IMG/VR virus record: IMGVR_UViG_3300023184_000414
Location: 1 to 28,554 of that record
Origin: a virus
DNA length: 28,554 nt
Reading direction: 5' to 3' (one strand)
The notes under the pieces are model-generated. The model had not been told where the DNA came from. It saw nothing but the letters and a program-made list of their open reading frames with translations, and searched no databases. The translations under genes were made by a program, and so were the position numbers. Shown here in pieces: positions 11,038-28,554 of this stretch (the stretch's first letter is position 1; each line of letters opens with the position of its first letter).

Positions 11038-12775
11038 CGTATGTCTCCAAAATACTAATCGCCAGTTTCTCTTGTTCCTCTTCACTCATATCTGATGTTT
11101 TGAGATTAATCATTTCAGAGAATGAGAAGATGTGAGCCAATTGACCTTCTTTGAATTTTGCTTCGATTTCATCATCGGTATTAATGGATGGCATAACATA
11201 TTCTGGGTTTGCCATGAACTGTTCTTTTTCAGTAAATCTTTCTGCTCTGACACCATAGTTATCATAAACTTCGTCAATCAAAGTTTGTATTCTGTTAGCA
11301 TCATCCAAAAGATAGTTAGGTATCAAGACCCAAGCCCAAGGTTTTACGAATTTCTTGTATTCAGTTGGATATATTTTATCTTTATGTCCATCAGGTAAAT
11401 ACAATCTTCTTCGGTCTTCTGCAAGTAATCTAGTAGCTCGACCCAAGGTTTGTGTTAACTTCGATTTTGTCATGTCTCTGATAGGCATGACACCAGTAAT
11501 TGCAGGTAAGTCTATACCTTCCGCTAAGATATCAACATGAAGGAATATTGCATCATCACTATCACTTAACTCATTCATTTTGTCAATGATAGTATTTCTG
11601 CTATTTATTCTTTCAAAATTACAAAAGTCTCCATATTCAGAATTGACACTGAACATATGAACATTATTTTGTTCACACCATGTCCTAAATGCAATGTCAT
11701 TTACTACATCGTTTAATTGAACACTACCATCGCAAGTTACTAGTAATTTTGCACCTAGTGATTTTGGTTTACTTGAATGTTCCTTCACCTTAACTCTGTG
11801 ATTAATAAATCCCTCAGTTATGGCTCTAACAGTCATAAGGGGATTGTCATAACTATATCCCTCATCGTTTTGCACTTGGATGACATGATAGTTATTTGGT
11901 CTTACAATCTCTCCTTTTTCAACCATTTCTCTAGGAGATTTTTCAAAGAGCAATTCACCATAAAAATCAACTCTATTCATCCCACGTTTGCAATCACTCT
12001 CTTTACGTGTTGCAGTGAAGAAAAACTGTTTTTGAATTCTAGGTTTTACTTTGTCTACATTTGACCAGTAGTCATCTCTTGTTATAGTGTGTGCTTCATC
12101 GTAGGTACATACATCAATAACTGGTATCTTATTCAATCTGTCAAATGAATCATAAGTAGCAATGATTACACAATGCTTTTTATTTGATTTAGATTCATTT
12201 ACGAAATTTACTATCTCATCTGAATTGGTAGTATTCTTAACTTCAATATCATCAATAGATAATCTATCTGATACATCGTTTTGCTTCAGATGTTTGTTTC
12301 GTTTCTTGATTGATTTGTGTATCTTTTTCATGCTGTAGTTATCAGAACTAACAGAAAGAAAATCACATTCAATATTGTTCTCAAAACGTGCCATGTAGAC
12401 AAAATCATTGAATAACTGATTACACAATGCTAGTCTATGTGCAGTAATGACATATACACCACTTTGATTATTTTTGTTTTTTTCCACCATGTCTTGAAGA
12501 TGGATATGCAACTGGATTAAAGTTTTACCAGTACCAGTGGGAATTGAAACCTGACCTATAGATTCGTTTTTTATTCTTGATAATGCATCAATTTGATGAG
12601 GACGTAGATTCTTTCCATCATTGTCCAAGAATTCAATACTCTCGGTAATTTTTGGTTCGAATTTTTCTGTGGTAATCTGTATAGGTTGCTCTATCTTAAT
12701 TGTCTCTTTATTGTTAGGCAACATCTTACGCAAAGCACTTGCTATTTCTTTTCGGATTTCATCAATTGACTTCAT
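11030..12775 (-). CDS. Superfamily 2 DEAH helicase/translocase, restriction type
   Basis: 581 residues. A Q-like LRPHQ (57-61), Walker A IPTGTGKT (78-85), DEAH (226-229), a TAT motif (FFTATR), and a RecA2 domain ending in QTLGRATRLL (442-451) define an SF2 translocase of the type III restriction / UvrB-like group. EGIDLPAITG precedes motif VI. The start at 12775 (MKSIDEIRKEI) is five bases from the -10 box, so the mRNA is probably leaderless; earlier starts fall inside the promoter. It forms an operon with the nuclease and lies behind a separate unit with the two methyltransferase-like genes. Confidence 0.88.
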   Translation of the reverse strand: MKSIDEIRKEIASALRKMLPNNKETIKIEQPIQITTEKFEPKITESIEFLDNDGKNLRPHQIDALSRIKNESIGQVSIPTGTGKTLIQLHIHLQDMVEKNKNNQSGVYVITAHRLALCNQLFNDFVYMARFENNIECDFLSVSSDNYSMKKIHKSIKKRNKHLKQNDVSDRLSIDDIEVKNTTNSDEIVNFVNESKSNKKHCVIIATYDSFDRLNKIPVIDVCTYDEAHTITRDDYWSNVDKVKPRIQKQFFFTATRKESDCKRGMNRVDFYGELLFEKSPREMVEKGEIVRPNNYHVIQVQNDEGYSYDNPLMTVRAITEGFINHRVKVKEHSSKPKSLGAKLLVTCDGSVQLNDVVNDIAFRTWCEQNNVHMFSVNSEYGDFCNFERINSRNTIIDKMNELSDSDDAIFLHVDILAEGIDLPAITGVMPIRDMTKSKLTQTLGRATRLLAEDRRRLYLPDGHKDKIYPTEYKKFVKPWAWVLIPNYLLDDANRIQTLIDEVYDNYGVRAERFTEKEQFMANPEYVMPSINTDDEIEAKFKEGQLAHIFSFSEMINLKTSDMSEEEQEKLAISILETYDA

Positions 12776-12780
12776 ACCGT

Positions 12781-12857
12781 ATTTTATCATAATTTGTATA
12801 TACTGCAACAAATAAAAATTTGAATAAATTTTTTAGGGATGGTATCTACCATCCCTA
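12781..12857 (-). promoter_or_regulatory. Palindrome-promoter cassette 11
   Basis: Palindrome 12834-12857 (loop ATCT), -35 TTGCAG at 12803-12808, -10 TAAAAT at 12781-12786, 16-base spacer. Separates helicase-nuclease from the methyltransferase pair. Confidence 0.8.
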
Positions 12858-12887
12858 AAACAAATCCCCCATAAAATTATGGGGGAT
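12858..12887 (-). terminator. Hairpin terminator
   Basis: ATCCCCCATAA / TTATGGGGGAT with a 2-base loop, followed by TTTGTTTTA on the minus strand. Confidence 0.75.
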
Positions 12888-12891
12888 AAGC

Positions 12892-14133
12892 TCACTTTCT
12901 AATTCCATAATAATCAGGAAGAAATTCTCTGATGTAATCTTGGAGTTCTTGAGATACGTCAAATTTCTCAAATAACTTTTCATCATCCCATTCTTCTTTA
13001 AAATCAAGCCAAGGTATAAGACCAAGTTCACCGCCGACTAAACTTACACCATTTTTATAGATTGAAAGACAAAATCTTGCAAAATCTGTTTTGAGATATT
13101 CTATAAAGTTATATTGTTCTTGTTCACTATCAAAAGCGAATGTTGGAGGATTTTGATTTGTTTTTCTTATACCTTTATTATCATTAGAAGATTTCATAAC
13201 CATTGTGTAAAAATCATCTTGTGCGATTTTTGAAGAATCTGATTTTGCAGACAAATTGACATGACCACGAATCCTTGCCATTTGTACAAAAAATTTATCT
13301 GCTGGTGGATTCTCAGCATCAATCTTAACATCATTAATACTTTGATATGTCTTGATAGATTCAAAAAATGGTTTCACTAAAGTTATCCATTTCTCACCAT
13401 ATTTACTGATATCAAAAATATCACTTAAATTATAATTTTCATTAAAAAATGAAATATCAATGTTGCCACTATGTTTGGAATTTATGTGCGTAATCACTGT
13501 AGGAACATATAAACCAATATTGAATACAGGATTACCATTAAACATTTCTACTGATTTCAAAGAATCTTTAATTTGATTTCTGAAGTCTACAGTGAACTTT
13601 GTTCCATACTTGCAGTCAATTAACCAAGTAGAAGGGTGTATTGCAATTATTTCTTCTGAAATACCAACAAGTTCACTTAATATTTTTATGTCTACATTGT
13701 TAGTGTATGGTGGATTACTAAAAACCAAATCAAATTTCATATCAATGCCTGTTATCATTTTCTTCAATGCTGGAACAGAAAACTCATCTAAATTATATGA
13801 TTGTACTTTGAAAATCTTAACAGCACAAAGTTGTTCAATTTTGTTGTCTGAAATAAAAACAACATCTGACGAATTAACTTTTTGTTCATCTACTAAAATA
13901 TGAAGAAATTCTATATTAAATAAAACTAATATTTTCTTATTTTGTAAAGATGTTTTACTGACCATCTTACGAATAAGTGAATAAGGTGTTGGATTCTCCT
14001 GCCAATGATTTCCTAGTTTCGATACCCAATTGAAAAATGAAGCACGTTCATCAGAATCATTTAACTTATAACTCATTTGCTTTAAAAAGTTATCATCAGC
14101 AAGGGTTTTGTTTTTTAATTCATAGAGATTCAT
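12892..14133 (-). CDS. Adenine-N6 methyltransferase-like protein B (keeps NPPY)
   Basis: 413 residues from the ATG at 14133; GGAAGAG lies upstream and the start overlaps the stop of protein A by 14 bases. It has NPTPYSLIRKMV (47-58, motif X-like), a degenerate motif I (KKILVLFNIEF, 66-76, lacking the GxG loop), an acidic motif II region (SDN, 95-97) and a clear catalytic NPPY at 140-143. The C-terminus (YLKTDFARFCLS, IPWLDF, DEKLFEKF) resembles the target-recognition and tail region of type II/IIG adenine methyltransferases. It probably needs protein A, or an unusual AdoMet site, for activity; this is inference. Confidence 0.8.
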   Translation of the reverse strand: MNLYELKNKTLADDNFLKQMSYKLNDSDERASFFNWVSKLGNHWQENPTPYSLIRKMVSKTSLQNKKILVLFNIEFLHILVDEQKVNSSDVVFISDNKIEQLCAVKIFKVQSYNLDEFSVPALKKMITGIDMKFDLVFSNPPYTNNVDIKILSELVGISEEIIAIHPSTWLIDCKYGTKFTVDFRNQIKDSLKSVEMFNGNPVFNIGLYVPTVITHINSKHSGNIDISFFNENYNLSDIFDISKYGEKWITLVKPFFESIKTYQSINDVKIDAENPPADKFFVQMARIRGHVNLSAKSDSSKIAQDDFYTMVMKSSNDNKGIRKTNQNPPTFAFDSEQEQYNFIEYLKTDFARFCLSIYKNGVSLVGGELGLIPWLDFKEEWDDEKLFEKFDVSQELQDYIREFLPDYYGIRK

Positions 14134-14725
14134 TGATAAACTCTTCCATGTCTGAAACAAACTGCATTTCCGCTTTTTGGGAATATTTCTCTAGTGTATC
14201 ACCAAATATCTCAATTACTCTGTCTGTGCAATTAATCCAACCATTTTTGTAAATGTAAATGCCAGAACAATTATCAGGTAAAGATTTCAAATGTTTACTA
14301 TCACCAATAAACAAATTGATATACTGTGAATAAATGTGCATCAACTTATAGCATGATGATAATTGTAGTTCAGAAAAATAATGTGTTTCATAGAGAAACT
14401 TTTTGTATTGGAAATCATTGCCAAGTAATGAGATTTTTTTACGAAGCATTCTGATAGTAAATTGACCATAACCAGCACAAAGGTCTAATGTGATTTTGTT
14501 CTGGTTTTTCCAATCATAATCACTTACTCTTTGTAACATCTCATCTACTAACCAAATCGGAGTAAAAACCTCACCAAACGTATCAGATTTTTCCTTGTTG
14601 GTTGCTACTTGTAAATGGTATTCTTTTGGCATAGGCATGATAGAAAAATCACCTTTTAATTTGGCTACATTTTTGAATCTTCTTTCAATACACTTAACTA
14701 TATGTGTTGAATCATAAACTATCAT
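14120..14725 (-). CDS. Methyltransferase-like protein A (keeps AdoMet loop, lacks NPPY)
   Basis: 201 residues from the ATG at 14725, with AGGA six bases upstream; an upstream start at 14764 lies in the promoter. GEVFTP (51-56, motif X as in N6-adenine methyltransferases of the type I/Eco57I group) is followed by LDLCAGYGQFT (80-90), an intact motif I, and a GDS (141-143) fitting motif III. Where NPPY is expected (about 155-165) the sequence is GIYIYKNGWIN. So it can plausibly bind AdoMet but lacks the usual catalytic tetrad. It is translationally coupled to protein B. Confidence 0.8.
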   Translation of the reverse strand: MIVYDSTHIVKCIERRFKNVAKLKGDFSIMPMPKEYHLQVATNKEKSDTFGEVFTPIWLVDEMLQRVSDYDWKNQNKITLDLCAGYGQFTIRMLRKKISLLGNDFQYKKFLYETHYFSELQLSSCYKLMHIYSQYINLFIGDSKHLKSLPDNCSGIYIYKNGWINCTDRVIEIFGDTLEKYSQKAEMQFVSDMEEFINESL

Positions 14726-14735
14726 GTTGTTTCCT

Positions 14736-14806
14736 ATGTTATCATCAAAGTAATATACTTGCAAAAAATTTTACAGATATTTGTAGGTATGGTAGTACCA
14801 TACCTA
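14736..14806 (-). promoter_or_regulatory. Palindrome-promoter cassette 12
   Basis: Palindrome 14784-14806 (arms TAGGTATGGT, loop AGT), -35 TTGCAA at 14759-14764, -10 TAACAT at 14736-14741, 17-base spacer. Drives the methyltransferase pair. Confidence 0.8.
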
Positions 14807-15090: not shown

Positions 15091-15171
15091 TCCCCCAGAC
15101 GAGACTCGAACTCGTACTCTTTGCAGAAAAGGATTTTAAGTCCTTCGTGTCTACCATTCCACCACCGGGGG
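15091..15171 (-). tRNA. tRNA-Leu(UAA)
   Basis: Class II cloverleaf: acceptor CCCCCGG / CTGGGGG, D-arm with GGTAGACA, anticodon stem AAGGA / TCCTT with loop CTTAAAA (TAA), a long variable arm, T-loop TTCGAGT, discriminator A. It reads the AT-rich UUA codon. No CCA encoded. First RNA of the unit started at 15182-15209. Confidence 0.93.
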
Positions 15172-15181
15172 TTACAGGAAT

Positions 15182-15270
15182 ATTATACCATGACAAAAAG
15201 GGTATGCAAGAAAAAATAATTAGTAATAAAAATTTGACACAAAAAAATAGGGATGGTATTTCCATCCCTA
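15182..15270 (-). promoter_or_regulatory. Palindrome-promoter cassette 13 (tRNA unit)
   Basis: Palindrome 15248-15270 (TAGGGATGG arms, 5-base loop), here followed by seven Ts on the minus strand so it can itself terminate; -35 TTGCAT at 15204-15209, -10 TATAAT at 15182-15187, 16-base spacer. Confidence 0.85.
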
Positions 15271-15288
15271 AAATTTATAAAACAAAAT

Positions 15289-16050
15289 TTATCGTGTCCA
15301 GATTTCGAATGTTCTTCCTGTACCTGTACTTAATCCTGATATAGTTACAGCTTCTACAGCAGAATATCTTGTTACACTTCCAGGACTTGTTTCTAAGTTA
15401 ACATAAGAACCAGCAGTACCAGCAAATGCTCCAATACCAATACTTACTGTATCTGTTCCACCATCTGTTCTAGTTAAATTAAATGAAATAGTACCAGCTG
15501 TTCCAGTAGAAAAGTATTTTCTAAATTCGAGTAAACTACCAGGGAAACCAAATGTTCCTCCTGTAGAAACTAAATTTCCTGATGTATTATAATCGTATAT
15601 TTTATATAGCAGTTCTTGTGCATATACTCTTCTGTATAAGTCTCTAAAGCTTGATAAACCTATAGCACTATTTGGATATGTAGCTCCAGTGTAATCTAAA
15701 GTTCTATCAGTTGTTTTGCTATCAAAGTAATCCCTAAATGAATATCCAACAACACTTTGGAAATATGTGTCTGTTGAGTACATTGTATTTGCATAGAATA
15801 ATTCTAAATTTGAAACTAATGTATCTTCTGTGCTTCTTAATGCTTGTGTCAATACAAGAGTAGCATCATAGTTAGCATCTGTATTTGATGTAGGTGTGAT
15901 TGTATTTGAAACAATAGTACGGTTTAGTTTTGTAAGAGATGCAGCAGTACCAGCTTGATCAACTAATAACTGATCTTGTAATTGTTTGTCAGCTAATCCT
16001 AAATTGATAGCATAACTTGTAAAAACACCAGCTTGATAAACAAATGACAT
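15289..16050 (-). CDS. Probable virion structural protein
   Basis: 253 residues, unlike its neighbours: rich in Thr, Ser, Gly, Ala and Tyr with few Lys. The N-terminal half is helical (MSFVYQAGVFTSYAINLG, then Leu- and Gln-rich), and the C-terminal ~100 residues are Gly/Thr-rich beta strands (TGTAGTISFNLTRTDGG), as in neck, tail or fibre-associated proteins. AGGG lies before the ATG at 16050. No good sigma70 promoter precedes it; a TTTAAATA at about 16078-16085 is close to the T4-type late promoter core TATAAATA. The exact structural role is unknown. Confidence 0.65.
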   Translation of the reverse strand: MSFVYQAGVFTSYAINLGLADKQLQDQLLVDQAGTAASLTKLNRTIVSNTITPTSNTDANYDATLVLTQALRSTEDTLVSNLELFYANTMYSTDTYFQSVVGYSFRDYFDSKTTDRTLDYTGATYPNSAIGLSSFRDLYRRVYAQELLYKIYDYNTSGNLVSTGGTFGFPGSLLEFRKYFSTGTAGTISFNLTRTDGGTDTVSIGIGAFAGTAGSYVNLETSPGSVTRYSAVEAVTISGLSTGTGRTFEIWTR

Positions 16051-16077
16051 AATATTCCCTCTAGTATGGATTTCTTA

Positions 16078-16085
16078 TTTAAAGC
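16078..16085 (-). promoter_or_regulatory. Possible late promoter core
   Basis: On the minus strand TTTAAATA differs by one base from the T4 late core and lies about 30 bases before the virion-like gene, with no -35 match. Speculative. Confidence 0.3.
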
Positions 16086-16116
16086 ATTTCGTTCCTGTTT
16101 TTTTGATAAATTATTT

Positions 16117-16138
16117 TAGGGGATACCTGTATCCCCTA
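16117..16138. repeat. Palindrome of the cassette family (variant)
   Basis: Arms TAGGGGATAC / GTATCCCCTA, 2-base loop. It precedes the virion-like gene but without the usual promoter. Confidence 0.8.
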
Positions 16139-16165
16139 AAAGGTAGTTGTGCAAATTTTTCTCAT

Positions 16166-16194
16166 AAAAAAATCCCCAGAGAAATCTGGGGATT
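16166..16194 (-). terminator. Intrinsic terminator of the rIIB-like gene
   Basis: AATCCCCAGA-TTTC-TCTGGGGATT followed by seven Ts on the minus strand. Confidence 0.9.
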
Positions 16195-16210
16195 ACTTGA
16201 CAAATCACGT

Positions 16211-17404
16211 TTACTTGGATTTGATGAATTCCAAATAAATCTTATATGCATCCTCATCTGAAGTGAACTGTTTAAGGATGGCAAATACTGGGTTGATTCG
16301 ATGATGGTCATCAACATTCTTGTAGAAATTTTTGAGAGCATTTCCTACTGCTGGTCGTCGATGAGCATAGAGCCATGATAACATCACAAGATATTGAAAT
16401 CTTTCATCTGCCCAATTCGAGGTCATCTTATTATCAAGATTTAATTCGAGTTGGATTTCTATCTTTGGTGCATCTGGGTGACCTTCATACATGCCATCTT
16501 CAGGTTCATCATCAGACTCATCGTCACAGTTGCAACATTTTCCACACTGTTCACAATCCGTACACCAAGAGTTATATTCTGAATTACAACCAGCGCAAAG
16601 GTCTTCTTCTTCCTTATCGTTCCAGATATCAACATCATCATCATTTTCTGTCTGGAAACGGGATGCATAAACAGGGTCAGATAAGTCAATCTCATACTCA
16701 TCTACTACCTTGTATTTGCAGGTGCGGAGTTTCTGGAAATTGCAGTCTGTTGGAATGGAAACTACATCTGCTGGGTTGATTTCTACAAGCACCAAGTGAC
16801 CATCCCTGTCCATATAATTCTTGGCATATTCTATAGTACCTGCGTGTAAACCATGTGAACATCCGATATTCTTATCATCATCCACTTTGTTTCGTGGCAT
16901 TTCAAGAACATTACCTACAGTATTAAGGAATGTTCCAGAATACTTATCGTAGTAATCTGAACGTACTGCTTTGTATGCAATAAAATTACCATTATCAGTG
17001 ATTGGCAGGTTTTCGTGGTCAAGGAATGTATACAGTTCGTCAACAGCACGTTTTGATGGATTGAGATTAAGTTTGAGAATAAATTTGAAGAGGTGAACAC
17101 AATCTAAACCATGCTCTAGGAACGAAAGTACACGAGTGGCAAGTGTGGAGTGAACAGGTTCACCAAAGACATAAAGGTTACCATCCTTAACCTCAATGCC
17201 CTCGTAGGATGCATACAAAGACTTAAGACGCAATTCTGGATTGACACAACTTACATAAGTATCCCAGTCTTCTGCTTTGTATGCCTCAAATGCTTTAAGA
17301 AACATCGGGTTCTGTGCATTGATGAAATATGGTTTGCCATCCAATATAACTGTGATGTGACCCGACTGCGGATTTGGGTCTGCGTTCTTAGCGAATAACT
17401 TCAC
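16211..17404 (-). CDS. rIIB: RIIB-like protein
   Basis: 397 residues from a GTG at 17404 with AAGGA eight bases upstream; the frame is open to 17551, but that part is promoter and palindrome. The N-terminal VILDGKPYFI region, the central DNGNFIAYKAV, and CSHGLHAGTIEYAKNY with VEINPADVVSIP are typical of RIIB-family proteins of large phages. RIIA and RIIB act together at the membrane in T4 lysis timing and exclusion; this role is inferred by family. Unusual here is an eight-Cys cluster (about 270-292) next to an acidic stretch. It has its own promoter after rIIA. Confidence 0.82.
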   Translation of the reverse strand: MKLFAKNADPNPQSGHITVILDGKPYFINAQNPMFLKAFEAYKAEDWDTYVSCVNPELRLKSLYASYEGIEVKDGNLYVFGEPVHSTLATRVLSFLEHGLDCVHLFKFILKLNLNPSKRAVDELYTFLDHENLPITDNGNFIAYKAVRSDYYDKYSGTFLNTVGNVLEMPRNKVDDDKNIGCSHGLHAGTIEYAKNYMDRDGHLVLVEINPADVVSIPTDCNFQKLRTCKYKVVDEYEIDLSDPVYASRFQTENDDDVDIWNDKEEEDLCAGCNSEYNSWCTDCEQCGKCCNCDDESDDEPEDGMYEGHPDAPKIEIQLELNLDNKMTSNWADERFQYLVMLSWLYAHRRPAVGNALKNFYKNVDDHHRINPVFAILKQFTSDEDAYKIYLEFIKSK

Positions 17405-17436
17405 GATAGTTTCCTTATGACCAAATTGATATATTG

Positions 17437-17537
17437 ATAATATCGCAACAATAGATGGGTTGCAACATATATACAGAAATATATTATAGCTGAAAAAATA
17501 TTGCGATAATTTTTTAGGGATGGTATTACCATCCCTA
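17437..17537 (-). promoter_or_regulatory. Palindrome-promoter cassette 14 (rIIB)
   Basis: Palindrome 17515-17537 (loop ATT), -35 TTGCAA at 17460-17465, -10 TATTAT at 17437-17442, 17-base spacer. The palindrome and adjoining bases are nearly identical to cassette 10. Confidence 0.8.
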
Positions 17538-17549
17538 CTCGAAATAAGC

Positions 17550-17578
17550 AAAAAAAAGGAGGCTCGAAAGCCTCCTTT
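17550..17578 (-). terminator. Intrinsic terminator of the rIIA-like gene
   Basis: AAAGGAGGCT-TTCG-AGCCTCCTTT followed by Ts on the minus strand. Confidence 0.9.
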
Positions 17579-17602
17579 CTGGATAGATTGTTTTGAGGAA
17601 AC

Positions 17603-19675
17603 CTACCTACCCATAACGTAGTCGTTAAGTACATCCATGTACTTGGTTTTGCTAAATACCAAGTCGTTGTATTCAAAGACATTCTTGAGCATTGGATGAT
17701 TGTCCAATGTCTCATTGATTAATTCCTTGCACAAATCATACAGATGAAAGTCAAACTTATAATCACGATAAACAAAGAATCTTAATGCTTGCATCTTTAA
17801 GGTTGTCATAGTATCTGTAGAGTAATTGTCAAGTAGGATTTGCTTAAGCTGTTCTTCCCTGTCGTTTGAACATTGCATTCCTCTACGATAGTAATCTACC
17901 CAAATACACTTGATATCATCAGATATTTTGCATTTGTTTACTAATGCTATCTTTTCAGATGTCATTTCATCAATTTGTTGTTTGATATGGTCATTTAAAG
18001 AAACCCATCCATTACCAAGTTTCTTTAAGTCTGCGGACTTGATACCATATACCGTATCAACTCGAATTCCCAAAGTGGACGCATTGTTCAGTAGTTGGTT
18101 CAGGTCAGTTACATCAACAATTTTACTGCCATCTGGATATCTCATCTTTGGATTGAACCGATTGATTTCTACATAAATCCCTTCAGAAATACCAAGGGAC
18201 AATTTCTCATCAATCCAAGATTGTGATGCAGATGTACGATGAGGCATAAACCTATATACATCAGACTTGACCATTGTTCTCGAAACTCTAGTCTTGATTG
18301 TTTTGTCAAAGCGCAGAGAAGCAACATCAACAAAAGTAGCACCCTGCCAGTCAGGATGATTTACGAATTCATCTCTGTCTGCTTGGTTCTCGAATTTGAA
18401 TAAGAATGCATTATCCAAATTGTATGATGATTGAGATATCCTTGGTCTTACTGATGTTTTGATAACATTCTCATGATAAGTAAAGATAATCTGGTCTTCA
18501 TTATGACTTAAGTCCGATATCACTTTGTAAGACGTGTTGTTATTTAAATTTCTCGAAATACGGAGAGCCTCTTTGAGCATCTCATATTTCTTCAGTTGAA
18601 TATTCCAAGAACGTCTACTGCTATAGGTTTCCCCTTGAAAATCTACACTGATATTGAAAGCACGAATTGTTGCAAACAATTCACAAAATGTCTTATCAAA
18701 TAAATACAAAGATTTGCACTTATCAATTTCAGATTGGACATCAGATTTAATGTCTTCAAGTATTTGCTTCATCTGTGAAACTAGAAAGGACTTTGTACGT
18801 TCGTCCATTTCAAGGTATTCACGGGAAGCGGCTGGTGTGACTGTTCCTATCTCAGCATATAACTTGATGTAGTTATTCTGGAATGGACTTAACTCTCTTG
18901 CATCATCCGCATTCAAAGACAAATCGGATAATTTAAAAGCATAGTTCACATTACCCATTCGCACAACATGGTTACTTTCATGCCACGTATTATGAATGGA
19001 GTAAGTATCTTTCTTGATTAAGAAACTTTTCTTATGTGTATCTTGCATCCTTCTAACCACAAAATCATCATTACGAACAATTGGTTGTGGTACGAATTCT
19101 GCTAGAAATTCACCTGCGGTAGTTTTAAAAGAATAAAGGTCATCTGGGTTGATTGCGATTGTTATTTCCAAACCAGTTTCTGTGGTTGGCTCTTCATACA
19201 ATTTTGCAATAACACCCAATCTGGTATCATCAATGAATGCTTTGTAGAGAGACTTTGTTCCATTGTGATATGAGGTGATTAAGAAATCGTTGACATAGCA
19301 GAATGCGCTCTTGCATCCTAATCCAAGCATACCTACTTGGTCATTTGTATTACGCTTACTAGATTCAGCATATGAGACATAGTCATTGAGCATAAACTCT
19401 TCGGACAATCCATACCCAAAATCACGAATGGTAAGTGTGTTGTTGAATGGAGTAGGAAAGATAACCTCAATTGGCTTATCACTGATACCTGCTTCAACAT
19501 GAGCATCGTATGCATTGGTGCAGTATTCACGAATGATTGCCAATGGCTTGTTGGTGTAAATTTTCTTACGTGCAATGTCAAACATAACACCAAGGTTCTT
19601 ATCCTTGATGGAAAAGAATGATTGCTTGATGACACCCGATTGCTCGATGTCAATTGTCGGTGAATTCATTTTCAT
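17603..19675 (-). CDS. rIIA: RIIA-like protein with GHKL ATPase domain
   Basis: 690 residues from the ATG at 19675, preceded by GAGGAAA; longer upstream starts fall in the promoter. The N-terminal ATPase domain shows the N-box (Glu50, Asn54, Asp57 in REYCTNAYDAH), DFGYG (85-89) and GLGCKS (118-123), the Bergerat fold of gyrase, Hsp90, MutL and T4 RIIA. The remainder is a long alpha/beta region typical of RIIA. RIIA/RIIB act as a membrane-associated pair in T4; family inference here. Adjacent to rIIB but with a separate terminator and promoter between them. Confidence 0.88.
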   Translation of the reverse strand: MKMNSPTIDIEQSGVIKQSFFSIKDKNLGVMFDIARKKIYTNKPLAIIREYCTNAYDAHVEAGISDKPIEVIFPTPFNNTLTIRDFGYGLSEEFMLNDYVSYAESSKRNTNDQVGMLGLGCKSAFCYVNDFLITSYHNGTKSLYKAFIDDTRLGVIAKLYEEPTTETGLEITIAINPDDLYSFKTTAGEFLAEFVPQPIVRNDDFVVRRMQDTHKKSFLIKKDTYSIHNTWHESNHVVRMGNVNYAFKLSDLSLNADDARELSPFQNNYIKLYAEIGTVTPAASREYLEMDERTKSFLVSQMKQILEDIKSDVQSEIDKCKSLYLFDKTFCELFATIRAFNISVDFQGETYSSRRSWNIQLKKYEMLKEALRISRNLNNNTSYKVISDLSHNEDQIIFTYHENVIKTSVRPRISQSSYNLDNAFLFKFENQADRDEFVNHPDWQGATFVDVASLRFDKTIKTRVSRTMVKSDVYRFMPHRTSASQSWIDEKLSLGISEGIYVEINRFNPKMRYPDGSKIVDVTDLNQLLNNASTLGIRVDTVYGIKSADLKKLGNGWVSLNDHIKQQIDEMTSEKIALVNKCKISDDIKCIWVDYYRRGMQCSNDREEQLKQILLDNYSTDTMTTLKMQALRFFVYRDYKFDFHLYDLCKELINETLDNHPMLKNVFEYNDLVFSKTKYMDVLNDYVMGR

Positions 19676-19888: not shown

Positions 19889-19913
19889 TTATGTTGCCTA
19901 AACGGCAACATAA
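19889..19913 (-). other. Hairpin enclosing the stop codon of the DUF932-like gene
   Basis: 10-bp stem TTATGTTGCC / GGCAACATAA with the TAG stop at the loop. No U-run follows. It could affect mRNA stability. Confidence 0.55.
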
Positions 19914-21220
19914 GCGTATTGATTGATTGTTTTCTCTTTCTCTAACTTTGCACGTTCGGAAATCATTCCCCAACGCTTGGAAATTGCTTGCAAATCACTA
20001 TCAATGGATGGTGCAAGGATAAAACTTGCTTGGGTTTCCATTTGTTCGCGCATACTACCCTTATAATCTTGTGATGCACGGGTAAGACCGTTCACAATAC
20101 CAAAAGCAGTGTTTTCGTGAACATGACCGTTTGCTTCATGCAAACTATCCAAGTATCCCTTGTGCCAGAGTTTACCTTGTTCAATGGTCATTTTCTGGTC
20201 ACGGGCAAGTAGTGCAATAGTTGCAAGTGGGTTTTCAACCTTGACCTGCTTGGATAAGGACATGAGAGTGAGAAGGTCATTACCTTGCGTCAAAGCACTC
20301 TTAACAGCATTGGTGACCTGTTCTTGTAATTCTTTAAGGTCAATCTTACCCATGTGTCGTTGGTTGACATTGATTTCATCTTTAGCATCTTGTCTACCCC
20401 AAATCATTCCATTAAGACAAATGGCACGGAAGAGGAATGGAGAAATCTTGAAAGTGGAATTGCGAATTTCAGAATTTCTGAATGCAATACCCACACCGTA
20501 GTCACTATCTGGTTCACTCTTCATGTAGTCTGGCAAAAGAACATTACCATAGATATCATCACCATCGTTGAAGATGTGTGAAGCAAGTGCATCCTTCAAT
20601 GATGGTAGAGCATTGACTACCATGTCCATGGCTTCAGAATTATCAATCACACCATATCGTTCAGATACGATGGCACGAATGACATCGTTGCCTTCATCAT
20701 CATGTCGAACACGTACACGGAAATCCCGTGGTTCTTTGCCAGAGTGGTTCCAAGTGGTTTCCCGTCTGTCCAATTCTTTGTTGAGAAACTTTACCAGTTC
20801 TTCATCATATTCACGCTCTTGAAGGAACGAAACCATGGATGAAGGAACGTCTGTAAAACCACGAAGAGAGTTAAGACCAGACTTGGTTAATGGTGTGCCA
20901 TCAAGCAGAGTGTTAGCATCAAGCAAGCGGATTTCAGATTCCTTCTTGACGATGTCTTCCTTGTGCTTGGATTGTTCCTTGACTGTAGAAACAAAGTCTG
21001 CGAATGGGGTACATTTGTCTTGCCAAACTTTGGCAACATGACGATGTGATGCAGAGGATTGAAGACCGATAGCATTGAACCAATTGCCATTGGCATCTTG
21101 CTTTGCTGTTGAACCTTCCTTGACTTGGAGGGATGAGACATTGGTGAAGACAGACTTGTTTGGTTCTGCTTTGATTGGTGCATCGTCCAGTTCAAGGAAC
21201 GATTTAGGTGTATCCGACAT
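19898..21220 (-). CDS. DUF932 / phage-plasmid-like protein (TIGR03299-like)
   Basis: 440 residues. Segments such as VIRAIVSERYGVIDNSEAM, GIAFRNSEIRNS and the FKISPFLFRAICLNGMIW region match, from memory, the DUF932 (TIGR03299) proteins found in many plasmids and large phages; their function is not established. The first 60 residues are acidic and low-complexity. AAGGA lies eleven bases before the ATG within an AAGGAAGCCAAT leader that belongs to the GAAGCCAA set. Good codon bias and a cassette promoter suggest high early expression. Confidence 0.8.
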   Translation of the reverse strand: MSDTPKSFLELDDAPIKAEPNKSVFTNVSSLQVKEGSTAKQDANGNWFNAIGLQSSASHRHVAKVWQDKCTPFADFVSTVKEQSKHKEDIVKKESEIRLLDANTLLDGTPLTKSGLNSLRGFTDVPSSMVSFLQEREYDEELVKFLNKELDRRETTWNHSGKEPRDFRVRVRHDDEGNDVIRAIVSERYGVIDNSEAMDMVVNALPSLKDALASHIFNDGDDIYGNVLLPDYMKSEPDSDYGVGIAFRNSEIRNSTFKISPFLFRAICLNGMIWGRQDAKDEINVNQRHMGKIDLKELQEQVTNAVKSALTQGNDLLTLMSLSKQVKVENPLATIALLARDQKMTIEQGKLWHKGYLDSLHEANGHVHENTAFGIVNGLTRASQDYKGSMREQMETQASFILAPSIDSDLQAISKRWGMISERAKLEKEKTINQYAYVAV

Positions 21221-23990: not shown

Positions 23991-24198
23991 CCTCATACTC
24001 GAAAAATCCAATGTCATGAGATTTGAAATTATCATCTGTTACAATTATTTCTTTTTCATCTGCCTCTAAACCAGCAATCAAAGAATATGTTTTATCATTG
24101 ATTTTAAAAGAGTAGATTTGATTCTCGAAATTGTATTCATACTCTACACTATCAGGAACAAAGATAGTTCCAGTAATTGTAAATTTTAATTCTTTCAT
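23971..24198 (-). CDS. Small beta-rich protein of a three-member family
   Basis: 75 residues (MKELKFTITGTIFVPDSVEY...EYEDAYFED). The FTITGT..VPD start and a YEDAYFED-like acidic end recur in the proteins at 25488 and 25717, so the three are paralogues of about 75-83 residues. Not recognised beyond that. The ATG overlaps the upstream TGA. Confidence 0.75.
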   Translation of the reverse strand: MKELKFTITGTIFVPDSVEYEYNFENQIYSFKINDKTYSLIAGLEADEKEIIVTDDNFKSHDIGFFEYEDAYFED

Positions 24199-24386
24199 TC
24201 AGCATCCTCGAAATAATCTGATTCAATTAAAGAGCTCGATTTTAGTTCTTCAACGATTCCTGGTTGTTGAAATAATCCTTGCATAAACGCTCGAATTATT
24301 AAATCTTTTGTTTCATCATCATACTCGCTCGAAAGTTCATCTCTCAAACGGTCTGCCATTGCTCGAATCCATTTCAAGTTTTCCAT
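24195..24386 (-). CDS. 63-residue acidic helical protein, leaderless candidate
   Basis: MENLKWIRAMADRLRDELSSE..., helical and acidic at the end. The ATG is five bases from TATAAT (24392-24397), with an extended TG and no good -35 or Shine-Dalgarno. The coding sequence contains four TTCGAG motifs in 160 bases. Not recognised. Confidence 0.7.
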   Translation of the reverse strand: MENLKWIRAMADRLRDELSSEYDDETKDLIIRAFMQGLFQQPGIVEELKSSSLIESDYFEDAE

Positions 24387-24391
24387 ACGCT

Positions 24392-24397
24392 ATTATA
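24392..24397 (-). promoter_or_regulatory. Extended -10 promoter
   Basis: TGATATAAT without a convincing -35, directly after the terminator at 24411-24438. Confidence 0.6.
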
Positions 24398-24410
24398 TCA
24401 TCTCTAACAT

Positions 24411-24438
24411 AAAAAAGGGGAGACTCGAAAATCTCCCC
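24411..24438 (-). terminator. Intrinsic terminator
   Basis: GGGGAGA-TTTTCGAG-TCTCCCC then six Ts on the minus strand; the TTCGAG motif forms the loop. Confidence 0.85.
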
Positions 24439-24448
24439 TCGAAATATT

Positions 24449-24661
24449 TTAGTCTTCCTCGAAATACAATTCCCCATGAAGACATACTTTATAAATATAT
24501 CCATCTGGAGTATCTAGTGCTTGATATTTATTAAATACAACATCATCTAGATATGTTTCATTAAAAGCATCATTAGTATCAAGGGAGATGACACACTCTA
24601 CATCATCTCCTTGTTCTGCTCGAATTTTCTGGAGTGCTTCGATTAGTTCTTTAATTGTCAT
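24449..24661 (-). CDS. Small conserved phage-type protein
   Basis: 70 residues (MTIKELIEALQKIRAEQGDDVECV), a start pattern I know from many small phage proteins of unknown function; it ends in ELYFEED. ATGA overlap with the upstream gene, whose GAGGAAAG acts as ribosome site. Confidence 0.75.
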   Translation of the reverse strand: MTIKELIEALQKIRAEQGDDVECVISLDTNDAFNETYLDDVVFNKYQALDTPDGYIYKVCLHGELYFEED

Positions 24662-25296
24662 TCGCTTTCCTCAAGCAATTCAGACCACTCATCCCATCCG
24701 CCCCACTTACCATCTTCCACTGCTTCTCGAAAATTATCGTAGGAGCAAGTTTCCTCGAATTTACCATCTACACAAGTAAACTCATAATGGGAGTCATTCT
24801 CAATACTACCAGATACCATTTCAAAAGTAGCATTAGGATAGAGTTTGGATAATCTGATTACGAAATTCTCTGGTGTTCCCCATGGACTATTAAAATTATA
24901 TATAATAGTATTGAAATCAGTTAGTTCTTTGGATGTACATTTATTAGCATCCCACTTTACACCCCAATTTTCAATATTCCAAGAATACCATTCGTAGTGT
25001 CCAGTTTCCTCGAATGCTTTGAGATTTTGAATAAGTTGTGTAGCACATTCAGCATCCCATTTTTCACCAGCAAGTTTAATTCCCTCAAGTGTTAGGAATT
25101 TAGTACCTTTGCTTTTATTAACTCCAGCAATAAAAGCATCAGGGTCAAGATGAGGAGAGCGTGTTCCATCTAATATTGATGGCATAGGAATAAAAGAATT
25201 ATATAATCCTTCAGTGTTTGCTTTATTTTTAAAAGCATCTAGTTCTTCCTTGGTTTGGAAGATACAGGTAAGTTCATTCATTACCCAGTTTGGCAT
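24658..25296 (-). CDS. Api92/YubB-like protein (DUF1281, ferredoxin-like)
   Basis: 212 residues. MPNWVMNELT, a YNSFIPMPSIL segment, WYSWNIENWGVKWDA (about 98-112) and a late FEMVSG strand followed by acidic and Trp-rich C-terminus (GKWGGWDEW) match the DUF1281/YubB ferredoxin-like family found on plasmids and phages; its function is unknown. The leader holds AAGAAGCCAACA before the ATG, and the start lies inside the upstream gene's end. Confidence 0.78.
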   Translation of the reverse strand: MPNWVMNELTCIFQTKEELDAFKNKANTEGLYNSFIPMPSILDGTRSPHLDPDAFIAGVNKSKGTKFLTLEGIKLAGEKWDAECATQLIQNLKAFEETGHYEWYSWNIENWGVKWDANKCTSKELTDFNTIIYNFNSPWGTPENFVIRLSKLYPNATFEMVSGSIENDSHYEFTCVDGKFEETCSYDNFREAVEDGKWGGWDEWSELLEESE

Positions 25297-25510
25297 TGTT
25301 GGCTTCTTTCTCGTACATCTTGAATGTACAATGTGTTATATCATCTGCTACAATAAATTGCCAATAGTTCCTCGAAATATTTCTTTTGTAAATATCGTAT
25401 CCCTTTAGCTGCAGATAATAAAAATTATACGTAATTAAGGACCAGCTAGTAAGATCTTTACTTTCTCTTACTAGCTGTTTTGCTACACTAATCTTCACTA
25501 AATTCTGCAT
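25274..25510 (-). CDS. Hypothetical protein
   Basis: 78 residues (MQNLVKISVAKQLVRESK), overlapping neighbours by 23 bases on each side. Not recognised. A 12-bp perfect inverted repeat lies within the coding sequence (25443-25477). Confidence 0.65.
   Translation of the reverse strand: MQNLVKISVAKQLVRESKDLTSWSLITYNFYYLQLKGYDIYKRNISRNYWQFIVADDITHCTFKMYEKEANNAKLGNE
25443..25477. repeat. Perfect inverted repeat inside a gene
   Basis: Arms CAGCTAGTAAGA / TCTTACTAGCTG with an 11-base loop. Confidence 0.8.
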
Positions 25511-25727
25511 CTTTATAACGTAGATTAGTTATGCTATGATTTTCCATTTCCTCGAATTGATGAAGGATATCATAACCTCCAGCACCAGCTTCAGCAACAA
25601 TACACACCTGGAGCATATACATAATGTCATTAAATTCTAATGCATATAATTTTCCAGCAACATCATAGTGTTTGATTGCATCATCAGGAATTTCCATTGT
25701 TCCTGTAACATTGAAATTAATCTTCAA
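25488..25727 (-). CDS. Small beta-rich family member, TTG start
   Basis: 79 residues read from a TTG at 25727 that overlaps the previous gene's end, with GGAAG close upstream. FNVTGTMEIPDD and the YKDAEFSED end link it to the proteins at 23971 and 25717. Not recognised. Confidence 0.7.
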   Translation of the reverse strand: MKINFNVTGTMEIPDDAIKHYDVAGKLYALEFNDIMYMLQVCIVAEAGAGGYDILHQFEEMENHSITNLRYKDAEFSED

Positions 25728-25968
25728 TTGCTTCCACCTCGATTTCTGAATCTACTGATATGTGTTTAATTTCATAATCCAATACAGACCAAATATCATT
25801 TGGGAATTGAATTAATTCTTCTGGATTATTTGGGTCTACTTCTACACAATTAAAAGATAATAAAGGTTCGAACATTACTTCTTCACACTCAAAAATTCCA
25901 CCATCATGTATTTTAACATTATCTGGAATTAGGAATTCTGCTGTAAAGGTGATTGTCATCTTTCTCAT
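25717..25968 (-). CDS. Small beta-rich family member
   Basis: 83 residues (MRKMTITFTAEFLIPDNVKI), sharing the TFTAEFLIPDN start with its neighbours; the end is acidic. Ribosome site GAGGAAGCCAAT, of the GAAGCCAA set and containing a TTCGAG motif (TTCGAGGAAG). First gene of this unit, after an extended -10 promoter. Confidence 0.75.
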   Translation of the reverse strand: MRKMTITFTAEFLIPDNVKIHDGGIFECEEVMFEPLLSFNCVEVDPNNPEELIQFPNDIWSVLDYEIKHISVDSEIEVEAIED

Positions 25969-25987
25969 ATTGGCTTCCTCGAAAAAT

Positions 25988-25993
25988 ATTATA
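25988..25993 (-). promoter_or_regulatory. Extended -10 promoter
   Basis: TGATATAAT with no good -35, about 20 bases before the ATG at 25968, directly after hairpin 26013-26038. Confidence 0.6.
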
Positions 25994-26012
25994 TCACAAG
26001 CTTCTTAAGTTT

Positions 26013-26038
26013 GAGGGGGAACGACATTGTTCCCCCTC
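26013..26038. terminator. GC-rich hairpin
   Basis: GAGGGGGAAC / GTTCCCCCTC, ten bp with a 6-base loop; moderate T-rich tail on the plus strand (TTGTTT), none on the minus. Confidence 0.55.
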
Positions 26039-26041
26039 TTG

Positions 26042-26081
26042 TTTACTAAGGAACAAGAAGCCAAAAAAGTTCCCTAGTAAA
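26042..26081 (-). promoter_or_regulatory. 3' hairpin exposing an anti-leader loop
   Basis: Stem TTTACTAGGGAAC / GTTCCTTAGTAAA (12 pairs and one mismatch) closes a loop that reads TTTTTTGGCTTCTT on the minus strand, the complement of the leader motif AAGAAGCCAA found before seven genes. It follows the HhH-GPD-like gene by three bases. Confidence 0.65.
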
Positions 26082-26084
26082 TTT

Positions 26085-26759
26085 TTAAAATTGGAAGTGT
26101 AGTTGGTTCTCTAAGCAAGAAGACCAATACCTCGAATTTTTATGTCCTTGTTTTACGTCCCAATAAATACATCTTGCAATATAATTAGGAGCAGACATTT
26201 TGTTTGCTCGATAATGCCACTTTCTCTCTCCCTGCTCATATATTGCTACATCTTTGGGATTATCTTTTTTATATCCCTGTTCATTCATTCCTAGTAATCG
26301 TAGCATATGAACATCAAGACAAACTGCTTGACATTTTTCTGGATAGCATAACTCTAAAGCAAAACTAGTTTTTGCTAATCCTATTCCCCACAATTCATTA
26401 GAGAGACGATTTCTAAAATTAAACCAGTTCTCTCTATTAGTCTTTTTAAATCTATCAGGATTAGACCAGAACTTGCTCGAAAAATCCCAGATATAATTGG
26501 TACGTTGATTATGACATCCAGCTCTACCAATTAATAATAAGTGAGCAAGTTTATCTTTGTCATTCTTCCATTCGTGATAATTTTTAATATGATTGTAAGC
26601 ACGTACATTGCTTTCCCATGTTGTGTGAATGCTAGTGTATGCAAACAACCATCTTTGGAAAAACTCTCCATCTGTTTTAGGAGCAACACTATTCCAATAT
26701 TCTTTATATTGATTCACTCTGTGTGAATCAATATTATTTAACACACTCTCAAATGTCAT
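26085..26759 (-). CDS. HhH-GPD DNA-glycosylase-like protein
   Basis: 224 residues from the ATG at 26759, preceded by AGAGAAGCCAA; an earlier start at 26822 lies in the promoter. A helix-hairpin-helix (GIGLAK, 125-130) is followed by a CLDVHMLRLLG segment with Asp149, the place of the catalytic Asp in endonuclease III/MutY/AlkA. This predicts a base-excision repair or modified-base enzyme acting on DNA. No Fe-S Cys cluster is visible. Substrate unknown. Confidence 0.72.
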   Translation of the reverse strand: MTFESVLNNIDSHRVNQYKEYWNSVAPKTDGEFFQRWLFAYTSIHTTWESNVRAYNHIKNYHEWKNDKDKLAHLLLIGRAGCHNQRTNYIWDFSSKFWSNPDRFKKTNRENWFNFRNRLSNELWGIGLAKTSFALELCYPEKCQAVCLDVHMLRLLGMNEQGYKKDNPKDVAIYEQGERKWHYRANKMSAPNYIARCIYWDVKQGHKNSRYWSSCLENQLHFQF

Positions 26760-26793
26760 TTGGCTTCTCTTTCTTGGTTTTGGCTTCCAATCT

Positions 26794-26822
26794 AATATAT
26801 CAGATGCACTATAGGATTGCAA
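26794..26822 (-). promoter_or_regulatory. Sigma70-type promoter
   Basis: TTGCAA at 26817-26822, TATATT at 26794-26799, 17-base spacer; the leader carries two GAAGCCAA motifs. Confidence 0.8.
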
Positions 26823-26837
26823 GAAAGAGAGGACATT

Positions 26838-27131
26838 TTATTTTTCTCTATAGTGTGATAATATTTGTTTGTATGTTTCTTTTTCTATTAATAAGCTTTC
26901 CCATTCTTTGGATTCCTTATTAACTTTAGTAATTGTTGCAGTTTTATTTTCATAATGATTTGCAATAGATAGTGAATAATTATCATCTTCTAAATACAAA
27001 CATTCGAAATGCTTTGACTCTGTTTTATTAATTTTAGAAGGATGATAATTTTTATATAAATCATTTAAATATTTATTCTTATCATCTGGATCTAACATTG
27101 GAGGATAAAGCTTATTGTTTAATAATGTCAA
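26838..27131 (-). CDS. Hypothetical protein, TTG start
   Basis: 97 residues from a TTG at 27131 with GAGAG seven bases upstream; an ATG at 27098 is the alternative. It contains LNDLYKNYHPSKI. Not recognised. Overlaps the upstream gene by 20 bases. Confidence 0.6.
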   Translation of the reverse strand: MTLLNNKLYPPMLDPDDKNKYLNDLYKNYHPSKINKTESKHFECLYLEDDNYSLSIANHYENKTATITKVNKESKEWESLLIEKETYKQILSHYREK

Positions 27132-27345
27132 GGATTTCTCTCACTTTCAAGAATGCTTTTTTAATTTTAGTCTCTACATTGATCATTAGTTTTTCTTCAT
27201 TTTGATCTTGTAGTTCTTCAGCATCATATTTAACTGTTTGATGATTGGCACTCTCTAATGATTTTAACATTATAGAGAATAATAAACCAGCTTCATCTTC
27301 ACTTAATGTGCTGCTTATCTTTTTTAACTTATCTTTATTCGTCAT
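27112..27345 (-). CDS. Tandem paralogue 2, helical
   Basis: 77 residues (MTNKDKLKKISSTLSEDEAGLLFSIM), matching the neighbouring 61-residue protein in KLKKISSTLSEDEAGLLF versus KFEQLCDILTEEEANSVL and a KIKKAF...ILDI end, hence a tandem duplication. Helical and acidic. Not recognised. Confidence 0.7.
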   Translation of the reverse strand: MTNKDKLKKISSTLSEDEAGLLFSIMLKSLESANHQTVKYDAEELQDQNEEKLMINVETKIKKAFLKVREILDIIKQ

Positions 27346-27520
27346 TTTTAAATAAACTCAGTATTTTATATATTGTTTGTAATTTAAAATTACTTAGTGA
27401 GGTGTAAACATTGATTTCCTCCTCTTCAATGTTCTCTAATAATATCTCTATAAGCTGCAGTACACTATTAGCTTCTTCCTCTGTTAGTATATCACAGAGC
27501 TGCTCGAATTTCTCTTTCAT
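27335..27520 (-). CDS. Tandem paralogue 1, helical
   Basis: 61 residues (MKEKFEQLCDILTEEEANSVL), all-helical. GAAGAG lies before the ATG inside the end of the uvsE-like gene. See the neighbouring paralogue. Not recognised. Confidence 0.7.
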   Translation of the reverse strand: MKEKFEQLCDILTEEEANSVLQLIEILLENIEEEEINVYTSLSNFKLQTIYKILSLFKNDE

Positions 27521-28409
27521 TGTATCTCTTCAGTATGTCCAGGATTGCGTAATCTTTACTTTTTAATTCTACATCAAACATTACATCTTTATTATAATTA
27601 ACAGGAAGATCTTCTGCCATATCCCTGTGAGCTCTAGTACCATTTTTTCCTTCACTATAATGGAATATTGGAGTACAGTTCCAGGTAGAATAAGCTAATA
27701 AGAATGCATCCTCATGAGACATATTATTATTAAGCATGTTGTGATGTAAGTTATCATAAGTAACAGGAATATTATAAGTATCGTAGAAATATTTCTTCAA
27801 TATTTCTACGGTCCAGGTTTTTCCAGTATCGTTGTTCTCTAATACTAATCTACTCTTTACATTAGAGGATAGTTTATTATAATTATCTATGAAGGTTTTT
27901 GATAACTCTTCTGGATCCCCTTCTTTTCTCACATGGATATTTAGTGGATTATAATAACTCTTACTCAAACCTAAGCGCTCGAAAATCTCAGCATGGAATT
28001 CTAAATCAATAAGAGAATGATTTATTTTTATTGGATCATCTGAAGTGAGAGTTATATATTCAGAGGGATGTGCACTAACTCGAATTTTTGTTTCTTTAAT
28101 AGCTGCAGAAACATTATTTATTTCTTCTTCTATTAATTTATAATTAGGAAGATCTTCTAGTTCTAACATTACATCTGGATGTTTAATAACTGGACAAAGA
28201 TCACTCGAAAGTCTATATCCCTTTATATTATTAGCAGCACAGTGATTAATAATTTTTCCAGTAACAGAAAAATTATTAATAATAATCTCTGACAGCTTCT
28301 CTAATGACTCAGCTTTATCTTTACTCGAAAAACTCTTATAAGTCATTGTTCGAAATTTGTATCCTTGTTCAGCTAGGATATTTGAAATACAACACAAGGA
28401 TAAGTTCAT
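27492..28409 (-). CDS. uvsE: UV damage endonuclease, UvsE/UVDE family
   Basis: 305 residues, the usual length for the TIM-barrel UVDE enzymes, which nick 5' of UV photoproducts in DNA. Seen motifs: YRLSSDLCP (66-74), SAHPSEY (about 110-116), LVLENND (about 188-194), PVTYDN, FHYSEGKNGTRAHRD (about 248-262) and DVELKSKD (about 275-282), which supply the metal-binding His, Glu and Asp. The start at 28409 is six bases from TATCAT (28416-28421) with -35 TTGTTA at 28439-28444, so leaderless. A 12-bp inverted repeat lies at 27782-27810. It overlaps the next gene. Confidence 0.9.
   Translation of the reverse strand: MNLSLCCISNILAEQGYKFRTMTYKSFSSKDKAESLEKLSEIIINNFSVTGKIINHCAANNIKGYRLSSDLCPVIKHPDVMLELEDLPNYKLIEEEINNVSAAIKETKIRVSAHPSEYITLTSDDPIKINHSLIDLEFHAEIFERLGLSKSYYNPLNIHVRKEGDPEELSKTFIDNYNKLSSNVKSRLVLENNDTGKTWTVEILKKYFYDTYNIPVTYDNLHHNMLNNNMSHEDAFLLAYSTWNCTPIFHYSEGKNGTRAHRDMAEDLPVNYNKDVMFDVELKSKDYAILDILKRYNEREIRAAL
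27782..27810. repeat. Perfect inverted repeat inside uvsE
   Basis: Arms CGTAGAAATATT / AATATTTCTACG with a 5-base loop, within coding sequence. Confidence 0.85.
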
Positions 28410-28415
28410 AACGTT

Positions 28416-28444
28416 ATGATATCATAGAAGGAATAAAGTAACAA
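28416..28444 (-). promoter_or_regulatory. Promoter of uvsE, leaderless class
   Basis: TTGTTA at 28439-28444, 17-base spacer, TATCAT at 28416-28421, ATG six bases on. Confidence 0.7.
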
Positions 28445-28465
28445 TATACGGAACAAAAAATCATC

Positions 28466-28554
28466 ATGAACGAAGAAATTTTAAAGAAGCTTGGTTATAA
28501 TAATATTGCTCTCGAAATGTTATTAAAAAGAGAAGCAGAGATTAATACTGATAA
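28466..28554 (+). CDS. Start of a plus-strand gene (partial)
   Basis: An open frame MNEEILKKLGYNNIALEML... runs to the window end, divergent to uvsE. No clear ribosome site or promoter is visible, so this is tentative. It contains the last CTCGAA motif of the cluster. Confidence 0.5.
   Translation, partial: MNEEILKKLGYNNIALEMLLKREAEINTD

Follow-up and report, generated by a model that had tools for sequence, protein, structure and literature searches.

The record IMGVR_UViG_3300023184_000414 of IMG/VR, whose 28,554 bp constitute the window analysed here, is a fragment of an uncultured phage. Its genes, nearly all leftward, encode rIIA and rIIB-like proteins, a DUF932 protein, a UvdE endonuclease and many small open reading frames (ORFs). 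Neither megablast nor tblastn with three proteins revealed a cultured relative, and there was no near match among named phages. The block of small genes at the right-hand end of the window carries a dense array of the hexamer TTCGAG, all copies lying on the leftward strand (CTCGAA on the strand given) and preceded by A or T. We describe here this array, its distribution among related phages and the ways in which it may be read.

The TTCGAG array of the window

An earlier examination of the letters only, hereafter the sequence-only reading, had listed 23 copies in a single orientation. CTCGAA is present at every one of these positions, but the count was one short, the copy at 24124 having been overlooked, and no + strand TTCGAG lies within 23998-28516. 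The 13 copies reported left of 23.9 kb correspond to 10 CTCGAA and 3 TTCGAG, and the A or T noted before the motif is found on the sense strand in all 24 core copies (T in 15, A in 9). The core comprises 21 coding and 3 noncoding copies; as had been stated, the coding ones fall in all three phases (9, 6 and 6 in phases 0, 1 and 2) and the motif occurs in a terminator loop, two window copies overlapping the loops of rho-independent terminators (Table 1).

Of 200 windows simulated with an order-2 Markov model, none had more than 4 copies in any 4.5 kb, the mean maximum being 2.0. When the dense regions of the window and of three related phages (G001, G003 and G005, presented below) were pooled, TTCGAG was observed 121 times with one antisense copy, against 2.3 expected from other regions of the same phages taken as outside background. 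It was the top-ranked 6-mer, TTTCGAG being the top-ranked 7-mer. This outside background is needed because the motif dominates its own sub-words, which makes an internal Markov z-score blind to the excess; indeed none is visible with it. In the pooled regions, 6-7 positions are fixed and flanked by weak preferences at -5 (A), -4 (purine), -2 (A/T), -1 (T) and +7 (A), the information being confined to about 13 nt, and the variants TTAGAG and ATCGAG are also raised. Motif density in the block reaches one copy per 100-200 bp. Synonymous-codon shuffles of the window yielded 4.1±1.6 coding copies versus the 21 observed, with similar gaps in the other phages. An orientation following the gene strand combined with a codon-pair bias, envisaged in the sequence-only reading as a possible refutation, falls short of this count, and the orientation tracks the block rather than the gene.

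Table 1. Location of the TTCGAG copies and associated features in the window
Feature	Position	Strand	Context
Dense TTCGAG array	23998..28554	-	24 copies, 0 opposite; over small-gene block; reaches contig end
TTCGAG	28511..28516	-	leader, 107 nt upstream of UvdE gene; conserved in G001
TTCGAG	28324..28329	-	uvdE, phase 2
TTCGAG	28204..28209	-	uvdE, phase 2
TTCGAG	28079..28084	-	uvdE, phase 1
TTCGAG	27978..27983	-	uvdE, phase 0
TTCGAG	27503..27508	-	uvdE, close to gene end, phase 1
TTCGAG	26476..26481	-	Ogg-like gene, phase 2
TTCGAG	26131..26136	-	Ogg-like gene, phase 2
TTCGAG	25978..25983	-	intergenic, start codon 15 nt downstream
TTCGAG	25551..25556	-	small ORF, phase 0
TTCGAG	25371..25376	-	small ORF, phase 2
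TTCGAG	25009..25014	-	DUF1281/CapR-like gene, phase 0
TTCGAG	24754..24759	-	DUF1281/CapR-like gene, phase 0
TTCGAG	24726..24731	-	DUF1281/CapR-like gene, phase 1
TTCGAG	24619..24624	-	70-aa ORF, phase 1
TTCGAG	24458..24463	-	70-aa ORF, close to end, phase 0
TTCGAG	24438..24443	-	terminator 5' edge
TTCGAG	24424..24429	-	terminator hairpin loop
TTCGAG	24362..24367	-	63-aa ORF, phase 1
TTCGAG	24328..24333	-	63-aa ORF, phase 2
TTCGAG	24290..24295	-	63-aa ORF, phase 1
TTCGAG	24207..24212	-	63-aa ORF, close to end, phase 0
TTCGAG	24124..24129	-	75-aa ORF, phase 0
TTCGAG	23998..24003	-	75-aa ORF, phase 0; last copy of the core
Rho-independent terminator AGGGGAGATT(TTCG)AGTCTCCCCT	24416..24439	-	motif at loop; same hairpin in G001, G008
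rIIA terminator ...GGAGGCT(TTCG)AGCCTCC...	17553..17580	-	motif at loop; same in G001, G008
Weaker downstream cluster	15105..18557	-	7 copies; rIIA end, rIIA terminator, next leader
Opposite-orientation copies in weaker cluster	15526, 16416, 16445		three copies
UvdE-type UV endonuclease	27492..28409	-
8-oxoguanine glycosylase-like protein	26085..26822	-	sub-threshold Pfam Ogg-HhH, E 1e-5
212-aa protein	24658..25296	-	sub-threshold CapR / DUF1281_C similarity
DUF932 protein	19898..21220	-	motif-free, also in G001, G003, G005, G008 orthologues

Block restriction, selection and a second word

About nine further IMG/VR phages carry an [A/T]TTCGAG array, most of them reached via window proteins. 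The group consists of uncultured and mostly giant viruses, jumbo phages of 300-358 kb among them. The relatives compared were G001 (26.5 kb), G003 (166 kb), G005 (129 kb), G006 (347 kb), G008 (358 kb) and the loci L308, L309, L310 and L311; G002 is the same phage as G003, and G004 and G007 (300.5 kb) are the same phage as G005. G006, whose rIIA is about 29% identical to that of the window, was first located through the motif itself. Among the matches listed by a triple-motif scan of IMG/VR, it was the only real one (L111), the others being mostly chance occurrences or tandem repeats.

Each long relative has a single dense block (G003 122-153 kb, G005 101-124 kb, G008 173-197.5 kb, G006 33-48 kb). 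Over nine blocks totalling 146.6 kb, 330 copies are in sense and 11 in antisense orientation. Genes on the opposite strand within the blocks of G008, G001 and G005, one of them conserved between G008 and G001, hold 10 copies in the orientation of the block and none in their own sense. Outside the blocks, coding counts are near or slightly below the codon-shuffle expectation, with no difference between sense and antisense; the rest of the 300-kb G007 has about one copy per 7 kb, on both strands. No orientation switch was seen across the genomes. Motif-free stretches also exist inside the blocks, the DUF932 gene being an example shared by five phages (Table 1). The blocks open with an AT-rich leader of 1-1.5 kb containing few ORFs; their small-ORF content and their sigma-factor, radical-SAM and rII genes suggest that they are early, probably immediate-early, regions.

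Two further elements were noted. Upstream of the radical-SAM gene, a conserved leader element, (G/A)TGGAGAC, occurs in two or three repeats, accompanied by CATTAGAGA boxes that are also repeated (L014:500-640, L022:2200-2290 and about 192.0-192.2 kb in the G008 leader). Directly upstream of the G006 block, at about 22-33 kb (L157:2000-13000), lies an array of about 11 kb made of some 40 short repeated ORFs starting with MINTDCV and rich in QVRxQV; CAGGTG recurs about 209 times within locus L186, which overlaps it.

Individual motif sites are under selection. Within the aligned blocks of the window, G001 and G008, which are 74-80% identical, 15 of 20 copies (75%) are intact between the window and G001 as compared with 28% of all hexamers (p=2e-5), and other pairs gave similar values. 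Moreover, the presence of the motif depends on position and not on gene identity. The uvdE gene lies in the core in the window, G001 and G008, with five, four and three copies, respectively, and off the core in G003 and G005, with none; for the radical-SAM gene, four phages have 3-4 copies each and G006 has none. Altogether, 31 core genes hold 60 copies in 16.7 kb and their orthologues outside the core 2 copies in 14.0 kb. Since the cores were delimited by the motif itself, this comparison does not provide an unbiased effect size, but it does demonstrate that the motif is independent of gene identity.

While relatives were being tested, the same polar pattern was met with another word, ACTATCA, in a second, unrelated phage group, G010-G017 (contigs of 14-69 kb; loci L242, L243, L244, L239, L246, L224, L210 and L245). 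G010 has 22 copies in 10 kb, which fall in all codon phases and in two terminator loops. Four records totalling 213 kb contain no copy on the opposite strand, genes on that strand included; such genome-wide exclusivity is a property of the ACTATCA phages and not of the TTCGAG phages. In G014 the block follows closely on a divergent strand switch and extends across both ends of the contig, which points to a circular map of about 69 kb.

RNA landmarks and possible readers of the array

Two landmarks of RNA are enriched in the motif. It lies at the hairpin loop of 12 of 43 terminators within blocks and of none of 102 elsewhere, whereas random placement in the noncoding DNA of the blocks gives 1.5 loops and never reached 8 or more in 5000 trials; part of the 12 loops are orthologous, about 8 being left after collapsing. 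The interval 5-25 nt upstream of start codons contains 23 copies for 10.5 expected (2.2-fold), although most copies lie elsewhere, and the start codon itself is depleted (4 for 10.5), orthologues not being independent in either count. In addition, nearest copies are never 6-13 nt apart and 14 pairs are separated by 14-21 nt, a minimum spacing of 14 nt that is the pattern expected of protein-bound sites. No helical phasing was detected.

We tentatively favour the view that a phage-encoded factor, probably a protein, acts on the transcripts of a single block and recognises them at [A/T]TTCGAG in a strand-specific manner. The sense-strand RNA, rather than the DNA, would carry the motif as the site being read, and each transcript would hold many copies, in coding sequences, leaders, the vicinity of ribosome-binding sites and terminator loops. 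By binding or cutting at these sites, the factor would allow the phage to control its early messages, the most likely outcome being their shut-off as the infection proceeds. The strand polarity is compatible with three readings, among which RNA recognition is weighed above a binding of the stoperator type and nicking is placed lowest. RNA recognition fits best because the motif reads in the sense direction of the main operon and is enriched both in terminator loops and just upstream of starts, two preferences for which it accounts. An RNA site on the coding strand was one of the two possibilities raised by the sequence-only reading and is the one retained here; the other, a Chi- or KOPS-like signal, found no support.

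In phage T4, the RegB endoribonuclease (GGAG) and the RegA translational repressor act on sites in early mRNA. The proposed system would share with them a phage factor and short sites in early messages, some of which are located here just before start codons, and would differ by its sequence and by a saturating array across coding regions.

Several results weigh against RNA recognition. No RegB- or RegA-like gene was annotated among the proteins scanned, and later genes display no avoidance of the motif specific to the sense strand. In RNA structure predictions, the motif is no more unpaired in its own context than between shuffled flanks (0.406 vs 0.425). Finally, the block orientation kept in opposite-strand genes implies either that DNA is read or that long early transcripts cross these genes, so that an RNA reading requires read-through transcription.

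Two candidate readers were discarded. A phage NusG acting as an ops-type reader would not be general, its homologues being present in G003, G006 and G008 and none being found in the G005/G007 sequence. These homologues (L254:9948-10481, L020:5598-6188 and the L301/L302 junction, G006 319808-320338) belong to phages that also encode several small proteins of the sigma-70 family. A conserved 63-aa protein of the block was not detected in G006, which nonetheless carries the array. Phylogenetic profiling against the motif-free jumbo phages G018 and G019 was uninformative, too few genes being in common.

A less likely alternative, though one to be taken seriously, is that of roadblocks resembling stoperators, in which a phage protein bound to an asymmetric double-stranded DNA site would halt RNA polymerase from one side and close the early block. 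Mycobacteriophages of the L5 type have more than 20 asymmetric 13-bp sites whose orientation is tied to transcription and needed for activity (PMC9283540, PMC6550527). The logic would be the same here, and such roadblocks account for the polarity, the spacing and the block restriction: as in cluster A phages, many asymmetric sites of a phage-specific motif share one orientation relative to transcription with a footprint-sized minimum spacing, the extended motif of about 13 nt comparing with the 14-nt minimum, and the orientation is set by the block rather than by individual genes. Conversely, cluster A stoperators are well-conserved 13-bp sites that lie for the most part in promoters or in short gaps between genes, in temperate phages with a known repressor, whereas TTTCGAG (about 7 nt) has just 6-7 strongly conserved positions, recurs up to once per 100-200 bp and is mostly genic, with terminator loops in addition. 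These loops would have no reason to be preferred, and helical phasing is absent. No integrase or immunity repressor was seen, nor any repressor combining a helix-turn-helix with a stoperator domain among ten window proteins scanned, although no systematic search was made for either.

Strand-specific nick sites, the localized single-strand interruptions of T5, phiKMV-like phages and Pseudomonas phage tf, are an improbable explanation. In tf, the sites (TACT/RTGMC) are on the top strand only, even inside leftward genes, and the rightward arm, with its small genes and replication genes, holds 12 of the 14 (PMC3517423). The layout of the array matches that of tf, as does that of the ACTATCA phages, by its short asymmetric motif on one strand, denser in one arm and kept on its strand in opposite genes; nicking accounts for this strand exclusivity and indifference to gene strand. 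However, the array is about ten times denser than the tf nicks (the window has 24 copies in 4.5 kb, tf 14 sites in 46 kb), the motif of the jumbo phages is at background level on either strand outside the block, and the preference for terminator loops and start codons is left unexplained.

A DNA polarity signal of the Chi, KOPS or entry-end type, used by a recombinase or a translocase, is very improbable. The motif is similarly short, polar, over-represented and strand-exclusive in its block, but Chi and KOPS sequences are genome- or replichore-wide, and the array is limited to one internal block of genomes of 300-358 kb, with gaps at particular genes, a background level on both strands elsewhere and a preference for terminator loops. 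Ordinary causes (usage of codons or codon pairs, promoters, ribosome-binding sites, proliferation of a repeat) are hardly tenable: certain other polar words of related phages are promoter elements, but this motif uses every codon phase, far exceeds synonymous and codon-order shuffles, has no repeated flanks beyond its 13 nt and is not locked to gene starts.

The screen that brought ACTATCA to light also yielded the polar words CCGTAAA, CTTATCT and TTTCCAG, all of which occur at fixed positions relative to promoters or gene starts and are ordinary. Repeated position-locked elements of this kind, found in L312 (G006 36-56 kb), L407 and L396, are TTTCCAG-N-TTTAACA...TATAAT, TTCCGTAAA...TATAAT, and CTTATCTTTG about 35 nt before starts.

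Wider significance and neighbouring observations

A word of 6-7 bases selected in coding and noncoding DNA alike, at such a density, implies that a sequence-specific reader exists. Its identification would expose a layer of control of early phage expression and perhaps a protein reading RNA or DNA with a specificity of 6-7 nt. The second motif family suggests a class missed by genome annotation, as the sites sit inside genes. It is plausible, although somewhat less likely than not, that a number of unrelated phage lineages have each filled their early block densely with a short one-stranded word of their own, and that this word serves as a sense-strand barcode by which a factor recognises early transcripts, or transcribed DNA, as a class and switches them together. 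If true, this barcode would be an unreported layer of phage gene control. Open-access papers, most subscription journals being outside this scope, contained no report of a TTCGAG/UUCGAG motif or of a saturating, block-restricted, one-stranded phage word.

Elsewhere in the window, adjacent genes at 10408-14764 may form a restriction-like cassette in a phage: by eye they resemble a nuclease of the PD-(D/E)XK type, a helicase of the DEAD type and an adenine methyltransferase (NPPY) whose N-terminal part is separate. At the start of the G008 TTCGAG block, a PD-(D/E)XK nuclease lies beside a Dam-like DNA methyltransferase (L253:16948-18235).

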